Positions 1,723-22,501 of a DNA stretch of 22,501 bases are shown one piece after another. A model generated the notes under the pieces. It was given only the letters and a program-made list of their open reading frames with translations. It had not been told where the DNA came from and made no database searches. Source of the DNA: a virus. The position numbers and the translations under genes were made by a program. Location: positions 1-22,501 of IMG/VR virus record IMGVR_UViG_3300017917_004203. The stretch is one strand, 5' to 3'. Positions within the stretch are counted from its first letter, which is position 1. The number at the start of each line of letters is the position of its first letter.

Positions 1723-2091
1723 ATGGCAAACTTTGATGAAGTAGTATTTGGGAAGAAAACTTTTTCCGATATACTAAAAGAAATATACGATAGGTCATCT
1801 ACTAAAGAAAAGCAGATTAATGACCTGATCCTCCAACTCCAGGACCTAATACAAAATATAGGAGATGCTACAATGATGGTGCCTCTAATAGCCAAATACA
1901 TGGAGTTAACCATTAAAAACGATGATGCTCTCATAAAGATGGCTAACATAGTTCAAAATGCTATAAGCAGAGGAAAGGCTACTGGGGACGACTCTCTTAC
2001 CGATTCTGAAAGGGATCAGCTTTTGCAGTTAGCTCAACAATCCGTTGCAGATAAAGCAGTAAAAGATCAAAAGGGTATTGCAAAATCATAA
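1723..2091 (+). CDS. Conserved small phage protein of the tail/baseplate block
   Basis: A 122-residue, mostly helical, acidic protein. The first third (VVFGKKTFSDILKEIYD) and the centre (LIQNIGDATMMVPLIAKYME, about 43-62) look conserved; I recall similar short proteins beside hub genes in T4-like marine and Bacteroidetes phages, but no biochemical role. The C-terminal third is Gln/Asp/Lys-rich and probably flexible. Its stop overlaps the next ATG by one base (TAATG), implying translational coupling with the first hub protein. It may be a hub assembly factor or minor baseplate part; that is inference from position only. Confidence 0.7.
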   Translation: MANFDEVVFGKKTFSDILKEIYDRSSTKEKQINDLILQLQDLIQNIGDATMMVPLIAKYMELTIKNDDALIKMANIVQNAISRGKATGDDSLTDSERDQLLQLAQQSVADKAVKDQKGIAKS

Positions 2092-3500
2092 TGGCAGGTC
2101 AATTTGAAAATAACGTGTCAATATTTCCTGCTAGGGTTTCCTATGTACTTTTAGATGACAGCGACAAAGAAAAGTTTGATAAGTACGGAGGATGGAAATC
2201 TATAGGAGCTATAGAATTCTACCAGTTCATTAACAATCAGACTGAGAACCGGGAAGTGTTTTCTGCGCTTCCTTTAAACGCCAATATTACTAAATTCCCT
2301 CTTTTAAATGAAGTTGTAGCTGTGGTAAGGCTCATAAGATACTCTGCGCAATCAAGCATTCCAAACTATGATCCGCAATATTATTATATGAGCGTACTAA
2401 ACACTTGGAATTCCCCGGAACATAACGTCACTCCGGATTCTAATGATCCTGTATCACAAATATCCGGATTATTTAAAGAGCTAGGATTTTCCCGGCTATC
2501 TAAAAACCCAGGAGACTTTACTATAGAAGGTAGAACTAAAAATAGCATAAAGCTGGGGTCTTCCATAGAAGGGTTTAACAATGTCTTTAAGGGAGCAAAT
2601 AGATCTCCTTTTTTAGTTGTATCTAACAATAGGGAGACCTCTAATACAACTAATAACTCCACTTTTGAGGATATCAATAAAGATGGATCATCGTTATATT
2701 TTTTAAAAGGCCATGACGTTTCTCTACTTCTTAGCACAGATAATTTTAAAAGCTATAAAAAAGATTACACTCCGGCAGAAAAAAGAAACATTGTTGAGCC
2801 GAAAATAGAACCTGTTAAAATAGAACCTGTTAAAAAAGAAGAGACAAAGAAAGAGGAGAAAGTAATCGTAGAAAAAGAAGCTCCTAAGCCTCCTAAACCA
2901 GTATCAGGGAATACTCCGAATACTCCAGCCAATCTAGAGTCTAAAAAAATATATGGTTTTGGAAATGTTTCAAACTCCGTACCCGTTTATGCACGACCTA
3001 TATTAGACATGCTTTCTTATTCTGAGGGAACTGCAGGGTTTTCTAAAGAGTACAACGTGGTTGTGACTTTTAAGATTATAGATGAATGGCAGGAAGCATA
3101 TGAAAAAGGGCATCCTAAAATATCTGTTTACGTTGGAAGAGATTCTACAGGAAAAGATTTATACTCTAATGCAGCTGGTCGGTACCAGTTTTTATATTCC
3201 ACTTGGGTTGGAATAAACAAAGGAAATCTTGCTTTTAGTAAAATAAACCAAGATAACTCTGCGTATAATCTTATATCAGATAAAGTTGACGACTCAATAT
3301 TAAAAAAAGCATACGATAAAGCAAAACAAAACGAATCTTACTCAAATAACGTAGAATTCAAAAATATATTAGACTCTTTGCACAAAACGTGGGCTAGCAT
3401 ACCTAATTCTGTAGGAAGGTACGGGTATGCGGGACAAATAGGAAACAAAACTCCTGAATACTATTACAACGTTTATTTATACGCTGTAAGTAAATATTAG
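2091..3500 (+). CDS. Baseplate hub protein fused to lambda-R-like (GH104-type) lytic transglycosylase
   Basis: A 469-residue protein in three parts. Residues about 10-225 form a beta-rich hub domain with KEKFDKYGGWKS (26-37), IEGRTKNSIKLGSS (145-158) and EDINKDGSSLYF (193-204). This resembles the gp5-type hub and OB region of T4-like phages and is paralogous to the next gene. Residues about 228-290 are a Pro/Lys/Glu linker with an exact 15-base tandem repeat. Residues about 298-469 resemble lambda endolysin R: LDMLSYSEGT (305-314, Glu312 the likely catalytic acid), AAGRYQFLYSTW (361-372), NQD (386-388) and WASIPNS (434-440). Lambda R cleaves glycan strands without water to give anhydromuropeptides. 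T4 gp5 instead carries a T4L-type lysozyme, so this is an analogous but different domain choice. It would act at the tail tip during entry. Confidence 0.84.
   Translation: MAGQFENNVSIFPARVSYVLLDDSDKEKFDKYGGWKSIGAIEFYQFINNQTENREVFSALPLNANITKFPLLNEVVAVVRLIRYSAQSSIPNYDPQYYYMSVLNTWNSPEHNVTPDSNDPVSQISGLFKELGFSRLSKNPGDFTIEGRTKNSIKLGSSIEGFNNVFKGANRSPFLVVSNNRETSNTTNNSTFEDINKDGSSLYFLKGHDVSLLLSTDNFKSYKKDYTPAEKRNIVEPKIEPVKIEPVKKEETKKEEKVIVEKEAPKPPKPVSGNTPNTPANLESKKIYGFGNVSNSVPVYARPILDMLSYSEGTAGFSKEYNVVVTFKIIDEWQEAYEKGHPKISVYVGRDSTGKDLYSNAAGRYQFLYSTWVGINKGNLAFSKINQDNSAYNLISDKVDDSILKKAYDKAKQNESYSNNVEFKNILDSLHKTWASIPNSVGRYGYAGQIGNKTPEYYYNVYLYAVSKY
2802..2831 (+). repeat. 15-base exact tandem repeat in hub linker
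   Basis: Two head-to-tail copies of AAAATAGAACCTGTT in the coding sequence of the first hub protein, each adding a Lys-Ile-Glu-Pro-Val-type unit to the linker. The unit is a multiple of three, so copy-number change would alter linker length without a frameshift. Confidence 0.85.
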
Positions 3501-3503
3501 AAA

Positions 3504-5066
3504 GTGGCTTTAGAAAACAGTATAAAAAGCGGATTAGATTCTTTTGCTAGATCAGCAAATAGAATAGCAAACACTTTACAAAATCCAAAAGTAGAGTATG
3601 CTTTTTCTATAGCTAGAGTTACTTTTGTTCTTTTAGATAGTAGTAACAAAGAAAAATTTGATAAGTACGGAGGGTGGAAGTCTTTGGGGCTCATAGAATG
3701 CGCCCCGTTTATAAACAATAACTTTAGCACTGATGTAATCTCTGCGCTTCCGATAAATCCTAATGTGACTCAGTTCCCCATAATAAATGAAGTAGTGTTG
3801 CTAATTAGAAGCATTACTTATGAAGCTCAGTCTTCTGTACAAAACTATCTACCTCAATACTATTATATAAATGTAATCCCTGTGTGGAATAGTACGGAAC
3901 ATAACTCTATTCCTAACGATTCTTTATCTAAGGCAGGAGTAAACCCTCCTACTAGCTTATTTAAAGAAACAGGAAAGATAAAAAGAGTAATAAAGGCTCC
4001 TGGAGACATCTCAATTGAAGGGAGATCAGGAAATTACATAAGACTTGGGTCTACGATATCTGGGTTTAATAGCCCGTATTCAGGGGAAAATAGAAGTCCG
4101 GTAGTAGCCATAATAAATTCTCAGAGAGATGTAACAGATTCTAAAATTGCTATATACGAGGATATAAATTTAGATGGGTCTTCTTTATACATGTTAGATG
4201 GACAGAGTGTTGCTTTAAAAGTAGCAAGTCCTAATTTTGATAGTTATAAACATAAGATAGATCAAAATCCTCTAAGTAATTATATTGAACCGACTATACC
4301 AAAAGAAACTAAACCTGACAACCTAGCGGATATAAAAGACGATCCTCCTCCGGTAATAAAAGAGATTACAAATGTTAATAAGAAAGAAGATCCTAAGATA
4401 GAGAGTAATCAAAAATCTGACGAATTCATTCTAGAAGAGAATAAGTTTGCTGAGCAACCTTTTGATTTAACTGAGGGGGGAGATATAGTTCCTTTTGAAG
4501 AAGTTGATGAAGTGTCTGTATTTAAAGAAATTACCGTAGAGGAAGAAGATAAGGCTACTACTAATACAGGAGCTCCTAAAAATAACAGTCCTTTATCCTC
4601 TTATATTGATCCTAAAGTTAAATGGCAAGCTCAACCTGCTGGAAGTACTTGGTGCTATGTTACTACGATATCCATGGTATTAAATTATTATGGAATACCA
4701 AACGCTACACAACGGAATGTTTCTACGTGCAATGATAAAAATGGAAATATGAGGTCAGAAACAGTAGCATCAAGATTTGGAGTAAACTTCAAGAAAACTA
4801 TTTTACCTTCAGGAAAAGTTAATTCGTATGAAGAATTAAAAAGAATATGTAAGAGTAGAAAAAAAGATAATTATGTAAAACCTTTTATATTAGAGAGGGC
4901 TAGTAATTATGGATATAAAAGCCATTTTGTTACAGTAGTAGGTATAACAGATGATGATAAGATAATAGTCTTTGATCCTGGATCTAAAAGATTTGCAGGG
5001 GGTACCATATTGAATATAAAAAATTTAAAAGAATCAGGAGGATCTGTAAGATTCTTTGATAAATAA
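3504..5066 (+). CDS. Second baseplate hub paralogue fused to C39-like cysteine peptidase
   Basis: A 520-residue protein. Residues about 34-250 repeat the hub domain of the previous gene: KEKFDKYGGWKS is identical, and the ALP.N.N.T.FP..NEVV, QYYY, WNS.EHN, IEGR.....LGS and EDIN.DGSSLY positions match. An acidic linker follows (about 255-365). Residues about 370-520 look like a papain-like C39 family peptidase: Cys384 in AGSTWCYVTTISMVLNYYGI, His474 in KSHFVTVVGI and Asp491 in VFDPGS would form the catalytic triad, and the order Cys-His-Asp fits. It might cut peptide stems in peptidoglycan or process a virion protein; the target is not visible. The start is GTG, 3 bases after the upstream stop; the next in-frame ATG is far inside the conserved domain, so GTG is preferred. 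Confidence 0.83.
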   Translation: MALENSIKSGLDSFARSANRIANTLQNPKVEYAFSIARVTFVLLDSSNKEKFDKYGGWKSLGLIECAPFINNNFSTDVISALPINPNVTQFPIINEVVLLIRSITYEAQSSVQNYLPQYYYINVIPVWNSTEHNSIPNDSLSKAGVNPPTSLFKETGKIKRVIKAPGDISIEGRSGNYIRLGSTISGFNSPYSGENRSPVVAIINSQRDVTDSKIAIYEDINLDGSSLYMLDGQSVALKVASPNFDSYKHKIDQNPLSNYIEPTIPKETKPDNLADIKDDPPPVIKEITNVNKKEDPKIESNQKSDEFILEENKFAEQPFDLTEGGDIVPFEEVDEVSVFKEITVEEEDKATTNTGAPKNNSPLSSYIDPKVKWQAQPAGSTWCYVTTISMVLNYYGIPNATQRNVSTCNDKNGNMRSETVASRFGVNFKKTILPSGKVNSYEELKRICKSRKKDNYVKPFILERASNYGYKSHFVTVVGITDDDKIIVFDPGSKRFAGGTILNIKNLKESGGSVRFFDK

Positions 5067-6955: not shown

Positions 6956-7354
6956 TTGAGAAAGAGGAAGACATACAAAATTAATACTCTAGATATAAAT
7001 AAAAATAGAGGCATAGGTATAAAAGTACCTTTTGACCCCGTACGGATATTTCAAATTACATATAATACAAAAGATCAGGTTAAATCTAACCTATTGAATT
7101 TTTTGATGACTAATAAGGGAGAAAGAGTATTCAATCCTAATTTTGGAGCTGATTTAAGAAGTTTGATATTTAAACAAATGTCTAATCTGGAAGAAATAAG
7201 AGAGTCTTTAATTGACGAAATTTCTTTATATTTTCCAAATATAACAGTAACAGATTTAATATTTACTCCTGATTATAATACTAATAGTTTAAATATAAAA
7301 TTAAGTTACAGGCTAAATACTGAAGAGGACACATTATCAATGAAAATAACCTGA
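6956..7354 (+). CDS. gp25: Baseplate wedge subunit gp25-like
   Basis: A 132-residue protein, the same length as T4 gp25. The core segment GERVFNPNFGADLRSLIF (55-72) is the signature of the gp25/GPW family, with DPVR and NLLNFLMTNKG before it and helix-turn-strand sequence after it. Members of this family sit at the inner core of contractile baseplates, where gp25 joins the wedge to the sheath and starts its assembly. The start is TTG, one base after the previous stop; the first in-frame ATG (residue 51) would remove half the domain. Its stop overlaps the gp6 ATG (TGATG). Gene order gp25 then gp6 follows the conserved arrangement in contractile tails. Confidence 0.9.
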   Translation: MRKRKTYKINTLDINKNRGIGIKVPFDPVRIFQITYNTKDQVKSNLLNFLMTNKGERVFNPNFGADLRSLIFKQMSNLEEIRESLIDEISLYFPNITVTDLIFTPDYNTNSLNIKLSYRLNTEEDTLSMKIT

Positions 7355-9243
7355 TGACAGATAAAGACATAAAATATATAAATAAAGATTTTTCCGGATT
7401 TAAAAACGATTTAGTACAATACGCAAAAAACTATTTCCCGGAAATCTACAATGATTTTACTGAGGCCTCTCCTGGTAGTATGCTAATAGAAATGGCATCT
7501 TATGTGGGAGATGTTCTTTCTTTTTACTTAGATAAGCAGACTCAGGAAAACTTTTTACTGTTTGCTCAAGATAAGCAGAACCTGTTATCTCTGGCCTACT
7601 CTTTAGGATACAGGCCAAAGGTAACATCTACTGCAATAGTAGACTTAGAAGTCTTCCAGCAGATACCGGCTATAATATCAGGAAGTACTGCTTTTCCTGA
7701 TTATAATTACTGTTTGGTAGTAGATAAAGAAGCAAAAATAAGAGCTAATACTCAACAAGGACCTGTATTTGTAACTCAGGAATTTGTAGACTTTAGCTTT
7801 TCTTCTTCTGCTGATCCTACTAATATATCTATATACCAAATAAATCAATCAACAGGACAACCTGAGTATTACTTATTTAAAAAGAAAGTAAAAGCAATAG
7901 CTGGTGAAGTAACTACAGCAACTTTTTCTTTTACCGATCCTGAAAAATTCGCTTCCGTAGAACTGCCTGATAGCAACGTAATACAAATATTAAGTGTTAT
8001 TGATAGTGACGGTAACAATTGGTTTGAAGTTCCATATCTTGCTCAAAGCACTGTATTTTTGGAAGTTGCTAACAATGAGCTTAACGATCCAACTTTAGTA
8101 CAATACGCTGATACTACTCCATATTTATTAAAATTAAAAAAAGTATCGAGAAGGTATGTAACTAGATTCAATTCTAACGACAGGTTAGTTCTGGAATTTG
8201 GATCAGGCATGGTATCTAATCCGGACGAAGAAATAATACCAAATCCGGATAATGTGGGAATGGGAGTCATAGATTCTATTTCCAAATTAAATACCGCCTA
8301 TGATCCCGCTAATTTTGTATACACTAGAGATTATGGATTAGCCCCAGCAAATACTACATTAACAGTAAGATATCTTATAGGAGGCGGAGCTGAAACAAAC
8401 GTTCCTTCTAACACTATAGTGTCCATATCTGAAATTAACACTAAAACTGTTTCTTTAAATAGCACTACTCTAAATCAAAACTTATTAGCATATATAAGAA
8501 ACTCTGTAGGGTTTAATAATATAGACCCATCATCTGGAGGTGCTTCCGGTGATACTGTAGAAGATATACGTTTAAGAACGATGGCCTCTTTTCCAACTCA
8601 ATTAAGAAATGTTACAAAAGAAGATCATATTATAAGAGCTTTAAGCATGCCTTCTAAATTTGGAACTATTGCCAAAGCTTACATTACACAAGATTTATCT
8701 TTTAACGAAAATCAATCAGTAGATTTCTTAAATAGTAATCCTTTGTCTTTAAGTATGTACGTTCTATCTTTTGATGCTAATAAAAAACTTGTGAATACTA
8801 GTTACGGTATAAAACAAAATTTAAAGAATTATTTGAGTATTTATAAAATAACAACAGACGCAATTAATATAAAAAATGCATATTATATTAATATAGGACT
8901 TAATTTTGATATAGTTGTATTGCCTTCTTACAATAATAGAGAAGTTCTTACTCAATGCATAGACATATTTAGAGACTACTTTAATATTGATAAATGGCAA
9001 ATAAATCAACCTATAGTTCTTTCTGAGCTATATAATTTGGTACTTTGCAAAGTTAAAGGAGTTCAAAATGTATCTAAAATAGAGATTGTAAACAAACAAG
9101 GAATATCTTCCGGGTATTCCCCATATGCTTACGATATAAAAGGAGCTACAAAAAATAATGTTATATATCCAAGTTTAGACCCTTCTATATTTGAATTAAG
9201 ATATCCAGACAATGACATATACGGTAGAGTAATAACTATGTAA
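7354..9243 (+). CDS. gp6: Baseplate wedge subunit gp6-like (baseplate J family)
   Basis: A 629-residue protein close in length to T4 gp6 (660). The N-terminus FSGFKNDLVQYAKNYFPEIY, followed by SPGSMLIEMASYVGDVLSFY and a SLAYSLGYRP segment, is typical of T4-like gp6 and baseplate J proteins. The middle has the polar, Gly-rich run YLIGGGAETNVPSNTIVSI and the RTMASFPTQLRNVTKEDH region (about 409-426), the usual J-family core that dimerises around the inner baseplate. The C-terminal part (about 480-600) is the alpha/beta dimerisation region. gp6 forms the wedge ring that controls opening of the baseplate. It is preceded by gp25 and followed after 10 bases by the M15 peptidase. Confidence 0.9.
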   Translation: MTDKDIKYINKDFSGFKNDLVQYAKNYFPEIYNDFTEASPGSMLIEMASYVGDVLSFYLDKQTQENFLLFAQDKQNLLSLAYSLGYRPKVTSTAIVDLEVFQQIPAIISGSTAFPDYNYCLVVDKEAKIRANTQQGPVFVTQEFVDFSFSSSADPTNISIYQINQSTGQPEYYLFKKKVKAIAGEVTTATFSFTDPEKFASVELPDSNVIQILSVIDSDGNNWFEVPYLAQSTVFLEVANNELNDPTLVQYADTTPYLLKLKKVSRRYVTRFNSNDRLVLEFGSGMVSNPDEEIIPNPDNVGMGVIDSISKLNTAYDPANFVYTRDYGLAPANTTLTVRYLIGGGAETNVPSNTIVSISEINTKTVSLNSTTLNQNLLAYIRNSVGFNNIDPSSGGASGDTVEDIRLRTMASFPTQLRNVTKEDHIIRALSMPSKFGTIAKAYITQDLSFNENQSVDFLNSNPLSLSMYVLSFDANKKLVNTSYGIKQNLKNYLSIYKITTDAINIKNAYYINIGLNFDIVVLPSYNNREVLTQCIDIFRDYFNIDKWQINQPIVLSELYNLVLCKVKGVQNVSKIEIVNKQGISSGYSPYAYDIKGATKNNVIYPSLDPSIFELRYPDNDIYGRVITM

Positions 9244-9253
9244 AATCTATAAA

Positions 9254-9790
9254 ATGGAAGATAATCTTACATTAGAAAGAATAAAACTAATGCATCCTAA
9301 AGTTAGGAATGAAGTAGAAAGTATATATAGAGGTCAAATTGTTCCGGCTTTATCTGGAAGGGCTATATGCAGATTTGTATACACTTTAAGGACTTTTCAA
9401 GAGCAAGCCGACATATATGCTCAGGGAAGGACTAAACTATTCGATTCAAAAGGTAATCGACTAGGAAAGGTAACTAATGCTGCTCCTGGTCAATCTATTC
9501 ATAACTATGGATTAGCTTTAGATATAATACTTCTTTTAGATACTAATAATGATGGTAAATATGAGACTGCTTCTTATGAAACAACTGTAGACTATGATAA
9601 AGATGGAAAAGCAGATTGGATGGAAGTAGTAGGAATCTTTAAAAGAAATGGATGGGATTGGGGAGGAGATTGGAGATCTTTTAAAGATCCTCCGCATTTT
9701 GAAAAAACCCTCGGATACAGTTGGAGACAGCTTAAAGAAATGCATGATAAAAAACAGTTTATACCCGGCACACAATATGTAAATATATAA
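9254..9790 (+). CDS. M15 zinc peptidase, probable endolysin, with calcium-loop-like insert
   Basis: A 178-residue single-domain enzyme of the M15 family (L-Ala-D-Glu or D-Ala-D-Ala peptidases). SIHNYGLALDI (81-91) supplies zinc ligands His83 and Asp90, and DPPHFE (145-150) supplies His148. The Arg-rich YTLRTFQEQADIYAQGR segment (43-59) is the usual substrate-side helix. Residues 96-122 hold two acidic loops, DTNNDG and DYDKDGKAD, resembling EF-hand or dockerin calcium loops. T5 endolysin has a calcium-controlled loop at a similar position, so calcium control is possible but inferred. No signal peptide or holin is visible nearby. It may serve lysis; its place among baseplate genes leaves a tail-borne role open. 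Start context is TATAAAATG, without Shine-Dalgarno. Confidence 0.87.
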   Translation: MEDNLTLERIKLMHPKVRNEVESIYRGQIVPALSGRAICRFVYTLRTFQEQADIYAQGRTKLFDSKGNRLGKVTNAAPGQSIHNYGLALDIILLLDTNNDGKYETASYETTVDYDKDGKADWMEVVGIFKRNGWDWGGDWRSFKDPPHFEKTLGYSWRQLKEMHDKKQFIPGTQYVNI

Positions 9791-9791
9791 A

Positions 9792-10889
9792 ATGGCAGCA
9801 TATAAAATATTCGCTGAAAAAGATACTACTCTGTATTCAGATTATAACGACATGAATACAGGAATGGATTCTATTTTAGAATTTTCTAAAAATACTAGCC
9901 TTTTATATATAAGCCAATCTACAGCAGCAAGAGTCCTTATTAAATTTTCTGACTTAGATATTCAAGAAGTTAAAGATAAGTATGTTCAAAGTTCAGATTT
10001 TAAGGCATATCTAAACATATATTTGGCAGATGCTACATCGTTACCCACAGACTACACTATAGAAGCTTTTCCTATATCAGGGAGTTGGGATATGGGTACA
10101 GGCAAGTATGGAGATTCTCCTATGGTATCTAATGGGGCTACTTGGAGGTATAGAAACTCAGGTAAAACAAGCCCTTGGGAAACTTCTAGCTTTGCTGCAA
10201 ATACCACTGGGTCTTTTACCACATCTAATATAGGAGGGGGAGTATGGTATACTAATTACACAGCTACTCAATCTTTTGGAGTATATACTAATAAAGATAT
10301 ATGTTTAGATGTAACTCCAATAGTTAAAAGCTACGTATCTGGAACAATACCTAATAATGGGATCCTATTAAAAACTTCTGGATCGTTAGAGTTCGATCCG
10401 GCTTATAATTACCTCCTATCTTTCTTTTCTAGAGACACCAATACAGTATATCCTCCTAATTTAGAAATAAAGTGGGATGATTCTTCATTTTCTGTTAGTG
10501 GGTCTACTGCGACTCCTATAAGCACACAAGATATAGACGTTACAATTTCAAATAATAAAGAAATATACAGCGAGGACGAAATATATAGGTTTAGGCTAAA
10601 CGTAAGAGATAAGTACCCAACAAGAACCTTTAGCACCTCTTCTTTATATACACAGCCTAAGTACTTGCCTAGTTCCTCTTATTATGCTATTAAGGATGTA
10701 AAATCTAATTTAAACGTAGTAGATTTTGATGATACCTACACTAAAATAAGTGCGGATAAATCTGGGAATTACTTTGATGTATATATGTATGGTTTAGAGC
10801 CTGAGAGATATTATAAACTTCTTATAAAGACAAAAGTAAGTGGATCTACTATTATTTATGACAATAGGTATTTTTTTAAAGTAGTATAA
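9792..10889 (+). CDS. Peripheral baseplate/fibre-attachment protein with DNRLRE-like N-terminal domain
   Basis: A 365-residue, beta-rich protein. The N-terminus (KIFAEKDTTLYSDYNDMNTG, later ARVLIKFSDLDI and an IEAFPISGSWD strand) resembles DNRLRE-type carbohydrate-binding beta-sandwich domains (about residues 1-230, including DVTPIVKSYVSG and NNGILLKTSGS). The remaining part has strand-rich sequence with DEIYRFRLNVRDKYP and YGLEPERYYKLLIKT and may be a second beta domain. Similar proteins occur in T4-like phages beside wedge genes. A role in building the outer baseplate or binding surface sugars is likely but not proved. It follows the M15 gene by one base and shares its TATAAAATG start context. 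Confidence 0.72.
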   Translation: MAAYKIFAEKDTTLYSDYNDMNTGMDSILEFSKNTSLLYISQSTAARVLIKFSDLDIQEVKDKYVQSSDFKAYLNIYLADATSLPTDYTIEAFPISGSWDMGTGKYGDSPMVSNGATWRYRNSGKTSPWETSSFAANTTGSFTTSNIGGGVWYTNYTATQSFGVYTNKDICLDVTPIVKSYVSGTIPNNGILLKTSGSLEFDPAYNYLLSFFSRDTNTVYPPNLEIKWDDSSFSVSGSTATPISTQDIDVTISNNKEIYSEDEIYRFRLNVRDKYPTRTFSTSSLYTQPKYLPSSSYYAIKDVKSNLNVVDFDDTYTKISADKSGNYFDVYMYGLEPERYYKLLIKTKVSGSTIIYDNRYFFKVV

Positions 10890-18336: not shown

Positions 18337-20094
18337 ATGTCATCCTTCAAAAGATTAAATAACGCAGATGTTGTAGAGGTTCCCTACATAGCTAATAAAC
18401 TATGGGAGTATACATCTTGTGAATTAAATCAGAACAATATAATCGTTCTCAGTGGCAAGAGAATGACAGGAAGCTTTGATCCTTTAAATGAATCAAAGTT
18501 TGGAGGTCAATATGAAAGATTAGTATACAACTCGGTAAATCATTTATTTTATCAAGATTTTTCCGGGTCTTACTTAAATAATCTATCTAGCCTATCCTCT
18601 ATATACTATAGCGGATCTAGTATATACAGAGCTTCTGGGTCTTACTATGATTATACTCCTGTGGGGTATATGAATAAAGATTTTCCCACTTACTTAGATT
18701 ATCAGAATCAGTACGTTAGTAAAATATACGCTGATAGGCCTAACAGAATCGTAGTAGAGTTCAATCAGGATATGGGATATAGCTCCTTAGGGCTTACTCC
18801 ATGGTCTGCTAAAATAAACAACGTTAATTGGAAAGTAATTGATCTAATATACGATATTAGAGCTTTCTATTTTTATATGGAAACGAATGCTAATATCAAT
18901 GACAATATTACATTTTCTTATAATTCTAGTTCAGGAGACATTGCCATAGTATTGGGATCTATTCCTTTACCATCTATTAACAATGCTGTTGTTTTTAATA
19001 ATATAGATGGAAGGTATAAACAAAATCAAATACCTTCTTCATCTTTATCACAAAGCGCAGCAGAGATTAAAGTACTATCCTTCCCTCAAGACATATACGG
19101 CAATTCTATATATCCGGGATCATTTTCAGTATCTGCGTCTTCTTATTATCTGATAGATGATAAAAAGGGAAATATATACGATATTTCCGGGTCTGCAAAT
19201 ATCCAGGTAGGTAACATATTTTATGATCATGGGCTAGCTATAATAACTCATAGGGACTATCAAAAACTATTTCCTGTTCCTCCGTATGCTAAAGATGATT
19301 ACTACGAATTTAAAAAATCAACATCTCCCAAAGTTGTATATCCTTTAGCGAATGACGATCCTAAATATTGGACTATAAATACAGGATCCATAGTACTTTC
19401 TGGATCTAACTCTAGTATGTTTACAACGGCTTCTAATGGGTCTATGGCTTTTTCGGGATCAACTCCTGGGAATTATGAAGTTTACTATAAGTATACTAGC
19501 GTAGCTCCTGATTCTTCTTGTACTTTAGAATCTAACTATGCTAAGTTAGTTGTGAAAGTAAAAGAGCCGATGTGTTCGTTTAGTTTCGTTGTGTCTGAAT
19601 TAATAGACTGTGTGATTGATGGAGGATCGGCTGGTGTTGTTACTCCTACGCCTACGCGTACTCCAACATCTACTCCCACATTAACGGCTACTCCTACTCT
19701 CACAACGACTCAAAATTTTGTACCATCTTCAACACCAACCTTAACAGCAACTAGCACACCTACGTTGACTGCTACTTCTACTCCGACTTTAACAGCTACA
19801 CCAACCCCTAGCCTCACTCCCACTTTAACGCCTACGTCTACTGAGATAGTATCGTATCTGTATGCTAACTCAGGATATGGAAATACTCCTGCTTCTGCTT
19901 GCGCAGATGCTACTACGTATAGCAGAAACTTATATTCAGATTGTCCTGCAATAACTCAAGGATGTATTTTATATAGAGGATCTAGATTACAAACTCCTAT
20001 ATTAGGATACAGTGTAATTAATGTAGGCGGTATAAACTTTAATGCTGATCCTGCAACCGGACAAATTATAGATATAGCATACGTGCAATGTTGA
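18337..20094 (+). CDS. Modular tail/fibre protein with (X-Thr)n linker and C-terminal Cys domain
   Basis: A 585-residue mosaic. Residues 1-125 and 230-306 look like one conserved phage structural domain (LNESKFGGQYERLVYNSVNH; later AAEIKVLSFPQDIYGNSIYP and VGNIFYDHGLAIITH). It is interrupted by a SwmB-like beta domain at about 128-221 (RIVVEFNQDMG ... NINDNITFSYNSSSGDI). Residues about 317-410 resemble a cadherin-like or Ig-like repeat (AKDDYYEF, VVYPLANDD, WTINTGSIVLSGS). Residues 435-504 are a Thr-alternating linker, and 505-585 form a small four-Cys domain ending in AYVQC, related to a domain of the next gene. It probably anchors in the virion by its N-terminus and displays the C-terminal domain for host binding. 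All domain names are by pattern only. Confidence 0.78.
   Translation: MSSFKRLNNADVVEVPYIANKLWEYTSCELNQNNIIVLSGKRMTGSFDPLNESKFGGQYERLVYNSVNHLFYQDFSGSYLNNLSSLSSIYYSGSSIYRASGSYYDYTPVGYMNKDFPTYLDYQNQYVSKIYADRPNRIVVEFNQDMGYSSLGLTPWSAKINNVNWKVIDLIYDIRAFYFYMETNANINDNITFSYNSSSGDIAIVLGSIPLPSINNAVVFNNIDGRYKQNQIPSSSLSQSAAEIKVLSFPQDIYGNSIYPGSFSVSASSYYLIDDKKGNIYDISGSANIQVGNIFYDHGLAIITHRDYQKLFPVPPYAKDDYYEFKKSTSPKVVYPLANDDPKYWTINTGSIVLSGSNSSMFTTASNGSMAFSGSTPGNYEVYYKYTSVAPDSSCTLESNYAKLVVKVKEPMCSFSFVVSELIDCVIDGGSAGVVTPTPTRTPTSTPTLTATPTLTTTQNFVPSSTPTLTATSTPTLTATSTPTLTATPTPSLTPTLTPTSTEIVSYLYANSGYGNTPASACADATTYSRNLYSDCPAITQGCILYRGSRLQTPILGYSVINVGGINFNADPATGQIIDIAYVQC
19639..19848 (+). repeat. (X-Thr)n repeat segment in the 18337 gene
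   Basis: About 70 codons in which nearly every second codon is Thr, with units such as STPTLTAT. It is interrupted once by QNFVPS. The period is 6 bases, with 16- to 24-base higher units of varied third bases. The same repeat type dominates the next gene. Confidence 0.9.
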
Positions 20095-20097
20095 TAA

Positions 20098-22501
20098 ATG
20101 GCGGACAAAAAAACAATAATAGTACAGGTTACCACTATTGGTAGCGGAGCAGGACCTTTCAATTTATCTACCGATACAGATGGTATATTAGCTACTGGAG
20201 TTAGCGCTATACAATTAATTAATGGCTATTATTTAGAAGTATCAGTTGATGCCTCTTATTTGTATATACAATCCACTGGGACTTGTTCTACTAATTTAAC
20301 GCTAAGTATAAATAATAATCCCACCCCTACTATAACTCCGGGATTAACTCAAACTCCGACTAGAACTTCTACTCCGACTCCAAGCATTACTGCCACTGCC
20401 ACTCAAACATCTACTCCTACCAGCACTCTTACTTTAACTCCTACTCCTAGCAATACTCCTACTCAAACAATAACCGCTACTAACACTCCCAGTAATACTG
20501 CTACTAGTACTCCCACTACTACCACAACTCCCGGATTAACTTTAACTCCGACATTAACTTCTACCAATACACCTACTTTAACTGCTACTCAAACTCTTAC
20601 TCCGACATTAACTAAGACTCCTACATTAACTGCTACTGCTACTAAGACATTAACTCCAACAATATCTGTAACAAATACTAGGACTTCTTTCAGAACTCCT
20701 ACTCCGACTAATACTCTTACTTTAACTAGGACCCTAACTCCTACTCCGACTAATACTCCTACATCAGTGCCGGGAATATGGATAGTAAGAGGAGATTATG
20801 ATGGCAGTACTACTTGTAGCGGATCAGTTACGTATGTGGATTGCAATGGGGTGCCACAAACTATATACGTAAATGATTTTCAAGAAATATATATATGCTC
20901 CCTAACTGTACCTATATCTACAGATTCTTGTGCAAACATAGCATTCTATTCCCCAGGGAATATAATACCTACTCTTACTCCTACTCCTAGTTTTGGGCCT
21001 ACTAATACTCCTACTCCTACTTTAACTAGTACTCCCACACCTACTTGTAATAGGCCTCTAGGACTATCAATATATTATTTCTGGACTGAGCTATGTTTAA
21101 ACAACACGTGTACAAATTTTACATCTTCTTATTCTGAGGCCTGTTCTGCAGCTGCTCTTTACATAAACACTGTAACTACATATTACTACAAGGGATTAAC
21201 TGCCCAACTATCTCAAAAAGCTGTAGGAGAAAAAGTGTATTCCGGCGTTTCTAATAATTGCTCTTTATTGCCTACAGGATACTATGTAACTAATGATGCT
21301 ATAGGAGAAGTAACCTATGTATTGAATGGAGTAATACAATCTATAACAACATGTGTATTTTTAACTCAAACTCCTACACCTACTTTAACTAGAACTTTAA
21401 CTCCTACCCCAACTTCAACCAATACTCCGACCTTAACTGCCACTCAAACTGTAACAGCGACCCAAACTGTTACATCTACTAATACTCCTACATTAACAGC
21501 TACTAACACTCCTACGCTAACTTCTACGAATACACCTACTAATACTCCCACATTAACTGCTACCAATACTCCGACCTTAACTGCTACTCAAACTGTTACT
21601 TCTACTAATACTCCTACATTAACAGCTACTAGCACACCTACGCTAACCTCTACTCAAACGTTAACCGCAACTCCTACTCAAACGGTAACTGCTACTCAGA
21701 CAGTAACCTCAACTTCTACTCAAACTTTAACTGCGACTAATACTCCTACTTTAACTTCTACTAATACGCCTACTTTAACTTCTACTAATACGCCTACTTT
21801 AACTCCTACTCAAACATTAACTTCTACTCCAACTCAAACCGTAACTTCTACTCCAACTGTAACTGCGACTAATACGCCTACCTTAACTGCTACTCAAACG
21901 CTAACTACTACTTCTGGAGCTACTTCTACTCCTACGCCTACTCAAACTGTAACAGCTACGAATACTCCTACGCTAACTGCTACACCTACTATAACCGCTA
22001 CAAATACTCCTACGCTAACCGCTACTCAAACTGTTACTTCTACTAATACTCCTACTCTAACAGCTACACCTACATTAACATCTACTAATACTCCTACTCT
22101 AACTGCTACTAGAACTGTTACTCCGACTAATACTCCTACTCTTACTTCCACTCAAACCGTAACTGCTACTAATACTCCTACCTTAACAGCTACTCCTACT
22201 TTAACAGCTACCAATACTCCGACATTAACTGCTACTCAAACCGTAACAGCTACCAATACGCCTACTTTAACAGCTACTCAAACCGTAACAGCTACGAATA
22301 CTCCTACTTTAACAGCTACTAGAACTGTAACTCCGACTAATACTCCTACGTTAACTTCTACGAGTACGCCTACTTTAACTGCTACTAATACTCCGACCTT
22401 AACTGCTACTCAAACTTTAACAGCTACTAATACTCCAACATTAACCGCGACTCAAACTTTAACGGCTACTAATACGCCTACCTTAACTTCTACGAGTACG
22501 C
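20098..22501 (+). CDS. Giant Thr-alternating repeat adhesin/fibre protein, 3'-truncated
   Basis: The frame starts at ATG 20098, 3 bases after the previous stop, and stays open to the window end (801 complete codons, no stop). Residues 1-74 form an N-terminal beta domain ([36 protein letters not shown]). Residues 75-223 are repeat block A. Residues 224-290 are a four-Cys domain with [18 protein letters not shown]. Residues 291-316 are a short repeat block, and 317-421 are a six-Cys domain ([27 protein letters not shown]). From 422 onward the protein is uninterrupted (X-Thr)n, units mostly NTPTLTAT and QTVTAT. These small Cys domains are of a kind seen in Bacteroidetes and phage surface proteins. 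It is likely a long fibre or adhesin with extended Thr/Pro stalks; receptor and length are unknown. Confidence 0.85.
20320..20766 (+). repeat. (X-Thr)n repeat block A
   Basis: About 149 codons alternating Thr with Pro, Leu, Ala, Ser, Asn, Gln, Arg or Lys. The order is less regular than in the distal block, and Lys and Arg appear more often. It separates the N-terminal domain from the first Cys domain. Confidence 0.9.
20968..21045 (+). repeat. Short (X-Thr)n spacer between two Cys domains
   Basis: About 26 codons of Thr/Pro/Leu repeat (PTLTPTP ... [14 protein letters not shown]) broken once by SFGP. It joins the four-Cys and six-Cys domains. Confidence 0.85.
21361..22501 (+). repeat. Long uninterrupted (X-Thr)n array, open at window end
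   Basis: At least 380 codons. Every second residue is Thr, except one position near 21916 where Gly replaces it without loss of register. The X positions follow a recurring cycle N-P-L-A (unit NTPTLTAT, 24 bases) with Q-V-A or Q-L-A units (18 bases). All four Thr codons are mixed, so most units differ at DNA level. The array runs past the window edge. Confidence 0.93.
21757..21804 (+). repeat. Exact 24-base tandem duplication within the array
   Basis: Two identical neighbouring 24-base units encoding Ser-Thr-Asn-Thr-Pro-Thr-Leu-Thr. Most other units have diverged in third bases, so this pair points to a recent duplication. Confidence 0.85.

Follow-up and report, generated by a model that had tools for sequence, protein, structure and literature searches.

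The DNA analysed here, positions 1 to 22,501 of the virus record IMGVR_UViG_3300017917_004203 (the window), is a 22.5-kb linear viral fragment from a metagenomic contig. An earlier note on its sequence had described two adjacent genes with a common N-terminal hub domain, and both open reading frames (ORFs) are present as described; we refer to them as hub A and hub B. Each combines this domain with a linker and a predicted wall-cutting domain of its own, and a putative needle gene lies directly 3′ of hub B. Lengths below are in amino acids (aa).

2091-3500, + strand: hub A gene, ORF of 469 aa with an ATG start
2091..2759, + strand: hub A N-terminal OB + prism domain (aa 1-223) with a short N-terminal arm, predicted from BLASTP to hub B and a model
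2760..2978, + strand: hub A Lys/Glu/Pro-rich linker (aa 224-296), with a low predicted local distance difference test score (pLDDT) and no family match
2979..3500, + strand: hub A predicted GH104 (lambda R-type) lytic transglycosylase domain with catalytic Glu312, from PHROG, PDB and lambda R alignment
3504-5066, + strand: hub B gene, ORF of 520 aa with a GTG start, adjoining hub A
3504..4250, + strand: hub B N-terminal arm (36 aa) followed by the predicted OB + prism domain (aa 1-249 in all), from BLASTP to hub A and the tree
4251..4613, + strand: hub B acidic/Pro-rich linker (aa 250-370), from sequence, with no family match
4614..5066, + strand: hub B predicted C39-like cysteine peptidase domain, from Pfam PF13529 and the catalytic residues
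5074-5601, + strand: beta-helix-type needle gene, a separate ORF with 47% identity over 43 aa to the C-terminus of the L002 hub (E 6e-12)

Residues 14-223 of hub A and 37-249 of hub B are 53% identical (BLASTP; 216 columns, 215 bits, E 2e-68). The homology proposed in the earlier note therefore stands, over a length nearer 216 residues than the 220 or so it gave. This similarity is far above chance and indicates that the hubs are paralogous. A second search of the window returned two copies of the shared N-domain, those in hub A and hub B, and their C-termini show no relationship to each other (best E 9). The wider family was surveyed through 223 distinct hub sequences, which form 194 clusters at 95% identity with the window's two included; its members are cited below by L number. 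Among the 37 columns conserved in at least 85% of rows, hub A keeps 33 and hub B 34, and against a model built without either window hub the two score 184 and 200 bits respectively. These values argue that neither copy is decaying, and an equally kept family core makes a structural role likely for both; a decaying copy was rejected as an explanation because the core is intact in each. The arm in front of the conserved Arg comprises 14 aa in hub A and 36 residues in hub B, with a family median of 31; short arms also occur in the two single-hub rows L120 (5 aa) and L126 (8 aa).

Residues 297-469 of hub A match the endolysin family PHROG_90 (E 1e-17), and in a PDB profile search the same C-terminus matched lambda lysozyme (1AM7/3D3D, E 1e-10). 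Its alignment with lambda R (hhalign 98%) pairs Glu312 with lambda R Glu19. By both profile similarity and the catalytic Glu, the domain is assigned to the lambda-R-type GH104 transglycosylases. Hub A is poorly modelled over its GH104 part, and the assignment consequently rests on sequence, not on the model. Lambda R has the same catalytic domain but is a free enzyme for lysis, whereas the GH104 domain of hub A is fused to a structural hub domain. Its closest counterpart (46% identity) is the GH104 domain of an ~ 900-aa baseplate protein of L246, compared with 27-33% identity to the GH104 domains of other OB hubs. The C-terminus of hub B matches Pfam Peptidase_C39_2 (PF13529; E 6e-10, 40.4 bits against a cut-off of 24), and Cys384, His474 and Asp491 lie at exactly the positions predicted for them. 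This Cys-His-Asp set and an upstream Gln (Gln375 or Gln377 in hub B) are invariant among hub B, L001 and L010. A PDB search with the C39 alignment gave weak matches only, papain-like and C39-like enzymes among others. We classify the domain as a C39-like cysteine peptidase, whose substrate is probably stem peptides or cross-links. Profile searches of the two C-termini thus recovered both families named in the earlier note, GH104 with Glu312 for hub A and peptidase C39 with its three catalytic residues for hub B.

The shared N-domain is recognized by no Pfam or PHROG model, and PDB sequence searches with either hub or with the N-domain alignment gave no matches. An AlphaFold model of hub A, confident over most of residues 11-215, contains an OB fold and aligns with contractile-tail central spikes over 110-133 residues at moderate Z scores of 6-6.7, too low to decide the assignment by themselves. 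The spikes that recur among these matches beyond the OB barrel are P2 gpV and those of P1, Mu and the Anabaena and Streptomyces injection systems. For L033, a relative with a one-piece hub, the model has a mean pLDDT of 84 and aligns over 150-169 residues with the spikes of P1, the antifeeding prophage (AFP) and the Streptomyces and Anabaena injection systems, over 147 residues with gp25 of Anabaena phage A-1(L) and over 125 with VgrG. In both hub chains the OB domain comes first, after an N-terminal stretch of 14 or ~ 37 aa, and there is no gp27 part. Besides the needle, four neighbouring genes bear on the assignment.

1723..2091, + strand: conserved 122-aa gene directly upstream of the hub, in the same position in L001, L009, L010 and Flavobacterium phage immuto
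6956..7354, + strand: baseplate wedge gp25-like gene (Pfam GPW_gp25, E 1e-11)
7354..9243, + strand: baseplate wedge gp6-like gene (PHROG_10646, E 6e-16)
9254..9790, + strand: separate gene for an M15 D-Ala-D-Ala peptidase, within the baseplate cluster (Pfam M15_4, E 2e-17)

The stop of the 122-aa gene overlaps the hub A start, and the best matches of this gene lie in relatives of the same clade. The M15 gene is a third wall-active enzyme, present as the same gene in the same position in L168, L170, L001 and L009. Baseplate synteny with gp25 and gp6 is conserved. Taken with the moderate fold scores, the position beside the gp25- and gp6-like wedge genes and the needle gene make a gp5-like central spike platform the best reading, with the N-domain corresponding to the OB-plus-prism part of a contractile-tail spike. 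The needle gene was recognized by none of Pfam, PHROGs and NCBIfam; its homology is to the C-terminal part of one-piece hubs, and in L001, L009, L010, L070, L168 and others the hub is followed directly by its orthologue. Most often in the family (123 of the 194 clusters, immuto for example), OB domain and needle share one chain with no enzyme. Where a recognized wall enzyme directly follows the OB domain, the needle is a separate gene. Elsewhere in the window, two genes upstream of the hubs, positions 933-1712 hold a divergent sigma-factor-like gene with a weak Sigma70 region 2, which is kept in clade relatives and is reminiscent of T4 gp55. At the other end, an ORF of at least 801 aa (20098-22501) runs off the contig and consists mostly of Thr-Pro-Thr-type repeats (DNA units of 42 and 24 bp). 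The preceding 585-aa gene has a shorter stretch of this type at 19600-19850. The repeat ORF may encode an unusual low-complexity stalk, perhaps a fibre.

Across the 194 or so clusters, at least six recognized enzyme types occur in the slot behind the OB domain. By Pfam it is occupied by C39 in L001, L010 and L168, by an SLT transglycosylase in L009, L170, L092 and L095, by M15 in L102, L120 and L175, by Amidase_2 in L124 and L146, and by M23 in L126; PHROGs add GH104 in L097 and L099 and an endolysin-type domain in L070. Five further occupants look SLT-like by eye only (L174, L176, L342, L347 and L090), and the slot domain of L094/L098 was not assigned to any enzyme type. One alignment that included GH104 fragments was discarded, as the fragments fell on the N-domain. 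The exchange itself is seen directly in L174 and L175, a clean swap of enzyme cassettes: their DNA is 92-93% identical over ~ 9 kb outside a single block, which encodes an SLT-like end in L174 (4199-4947) and M15 in L175 (6788-7341). This swap and the range of enzymes at one slot support enzyme exchange as a process.

Wall enzymes also occur at other places around the hub. In L100, L103, L112, L125, L129, L160 and others, an M15-type peptidase has an ORF of its own, flanked by an OB hub without any enzyme on one side and the needle gene on the other, possibly an intermediate of fusion or fission. In L246, the L012 genome and immuto a wall enzyme is carried by the ~ 900-aa protein (GH104, GH24 and VanY). 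This protein (L246 2796-5522, L329 1501-4215, immuto QQO92155) has an exchangeable C-terminal wall enzyme and so forms a second cassette site in hub-family phages; in immuto it lies close to the tape measure gene, and it may be a gp27-like barrel hub. In L007 (Microcystis phage Mel-JY01) a one-piece hub is followed directly by another enzyme gene, annotated as a putative chitinase (COG3179; 9490-10521), whose product has a long low-complexity N-terminus. Long extra C-terminal domains are found after the needle in L184 (6706-7905; no match in PHROGs) and on the hub of L386 (4016-6241).

Each of the 233 other loci that the main survey covered (some of them from the same contig) had a single hub, as did all 51 loci found independently via the gp6-like gene and each of 48 whole records, which include isolate genomes of 160 and 190 kb. 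The window is thus the only two-hub locus among those examined, and the gene pair that the earlier note had proposed to look for in related phages was met nowhere else among them. Most IMG/VR contigs are fragments, in which a distant second hub could sometimes escape but a tandem pair rarely would. GTDB genome contigs yielded no relatives, nor did a pattern-set search of viral contigs with full hub B, whereas alignment-based searches of viral contigs did find them. In the open-access literature searched we found no phage described with paralogous OB hubs that differ in their wall enzyme, and no account of paralogous or mixed hubs.

In the tree, the single C39 hub of L168 is the sister of hub B (support 96/90); L168 is the nearest relative, and most flanking genes are also closest to it. 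Hub A branches outside this pair of hubs. Forcing the two hubs to be sisters costs 8-11 log units (p-value of the approximately unbiased test, p-AU, 0.054-0.063). Together with the missing arm of hub A and a GH104 domain closest to that of another baseplate protein, this disfavours a simple recent tandem duplication in place, without rejecting it. The duplication followed by domain replacement that had first been suggested consequently holds for the paralogy and the enzyme exchange, but not for a simple origin in place. By these comparisons hub B is the resident copy. The additional copy directly before it, hub A, seems to be either older or acquired, and its cassette to have come from elsewhere. 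Another hub of this clade is the probable source of hub A, which would then have received a GH104 cassette like that on the second baseplate protein.

We consider the chances about even that the tail is contractile and T4-like, with a trimeric central spike platform to which both paralogues, hub A and hub B, contribute subunits at one shared tip. The OB + prism domain would seat each hub at the tube tip, followed by the flexible linker and then the wall-cutting domain. Below the hubs the beta-helix needle would trimerize, and the three platform positions above this one needle would be shared between hub A and hub B once both were incorporated into the virion. After the needle had pierced the outer membrane, glycan strands would be cut by the GH104 domain and peptides probably by the C39-like domain, at one spot. 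The more specific proposal is a mixed trimer: two paralogues, each with a different wall enzyme, would together form the central spike on a single needle encoded by its own gene. Such a two-tool tip would have been gained through a second platform gene, in a phage group with an exchangeable cassette slot behind the OB domain. We advance this proposal tentatively, its chances somewhat short of even. The shared tip is supported by the paralogy of the hubs, the family core kept in both, their intact catalytic residues, the baseplate synteny, the homology of the needle to one-piece hubs, the repeated model alignments with central spikes and the precedents of T4 gp5 and A-1(L).

Several observations weigh against it. 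Every other hub examined stands alone and has no more than one enzyme, so a pair is plainly not needed. The fold scores are moderate, and T4 gp5 is not among the matches listed. Hub A is without the N-terminal arm found in the rest of its clade; in A-1(L) the N-terminal helix of the spike contacts and grips the tape measure protein, and hub A may therefore be seated in another way, or fail to seat. In Serratia, heterotrimers of VgrG1 and VgrG2 do not form (PMC4924876).

The armless N-terminus also suits an arrangement in which hub B alone forms the trimer and hub A is an accessory enzyme, loosely docked through a borrowed OB domain, or acting elsewhere in the virion or at lysis. The tree and the neighbouring genes mark hub A as the extra copy, and some relatives have M15 as a separate gene between hub and needle. 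However, a free enzyme would have no such need of the conserved positions that hub A retains as fully as hub B, and the short-armed single hubs L120 and L126 indicate that a short arm is tolerated; we judge this arrangement unlikely, though worth serious consideration. Alternatively, hub A and hub B could form separate homotrimers, each virion carrying either a GH104 or a C39 tip, so that the virion population is mixed (bet-hedging). Their 47% divergence could block mixing, and the Serratia paralogues do not co-assemble. The hubs nevertheless share a single needle gene and are adjacent and probably co-translated, and V. cholerae VgrG paralogues do interact (PMC3166118), which leaves separate homotrimers rather unlikely.

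C39 peptidases classically cleave after Gly-Gly and are best known for cutting leader peptides. The C39-like domain of hub B could on this basis be a processing or assembly protease, a counterpart of the maturation cleavage of T4 gp5, and not a wall enzyme. There is a Gly-Gly at 325-326 in the hub B linker, but none in the linkers of L001 and L010, and self-processing through this site was rejected since it is not kept in relatives. The SLT, GH104, M15, M23 and Amidase_2 cassettes of the same slot likewise indicate the wall as the common target, and we regard a processing role as improbable. That mis-assembly of two related phages created the second hub is hardly credible even for a metagenomic contig: the junction falls exactly between the hub A stop and the hub B start, where no homologous sequence would allow a mis-join, the gene upstream of hub A and those downstream of hub B are best matched by the same clade (mostly L168), and base composition is continuous.

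In T4 gp5 the OB domain binds gp27 and the chain is cleaved between lysozyme and needle (PMC7650644). The window shows the same order, from a predicted OB domain through linker and wall enzyme to a beta-helix-type needle, and the same baseplate position near gp25/gp6-like genes. T4 has one OB-enzyme gene with a GH24 enzyme, and its needle is part of the cleaved chain; the window has two such genes, with GH104 and C39, and a needle ORF of its own. The window would thus encode as separate parts what T4 makes as a single gp5 chain and then cleaves. The earlier comparison with a T4 gp5 whose domains had been exchanged also missed the separately encoded needle. Among isolated phages, the nearest include Flavobacterium phages such as immuto, which has one hub. 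The immuto hub (QQO92072) belongs to the same OB hub family and shows the same gene order as the window, but differs in having no enzyme and a needle in the same chain, the VanY enzyme being on its ~ 900-aa protein.

The hub of A-1(L) has endoglucanase and peptidase activities in a single chain, both assayed (PMC10966104); the combination of two wall-cutting activities in a hub therefore has a precedent. Its hub gp15 and spike gp25 resemble the proposed tip of the window in bringing glycan-cutting and peptidase activity to the tip and in having a separate OB spike (PMC10966104). A-1(L) places both enzymes in one chain on a barrel hub, whereas the window has one enzyme per chain on two OB paralogues. 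The ‘evolved’ VgrGs of the type VI secretion system (V. cholerae VgrG-1, VgrG-2 and VgrG-3) are likewise spike paralogues with different C-terminal effectors that are able to interact. VgrG is, however, a fusion of gp27 and gp5 with the effector after the needle, while in the window the enzyme precedes a separately encoded needle and there is no gp27 part. Dual-enzyme hubs and interacting spike paralogues are known separately, from A-1(L) and the Vibrio VgrGs. Shuffling of domains is a general theme among phages, in endolysins as in tail proteins (PMC10684548).

Wall enzymes at the tail tip help to decide which bacteria a contractile phage enters, and the central spike is generally regarded as homotrimeric. 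Should hub A and hub B mix, the three-fold symmetry would be broken and two chemistries would act at one spot. The family offers a natural cassette site, one OB platform that carries GH104, SLT, C39, M15, M23 or Amidase_2 in different phages. The gain and change of enzymes in gp5-like spikes becomes directly testable with it, and these natural fusions of enzyme and platform are a ready-made set for laboratory comparison.

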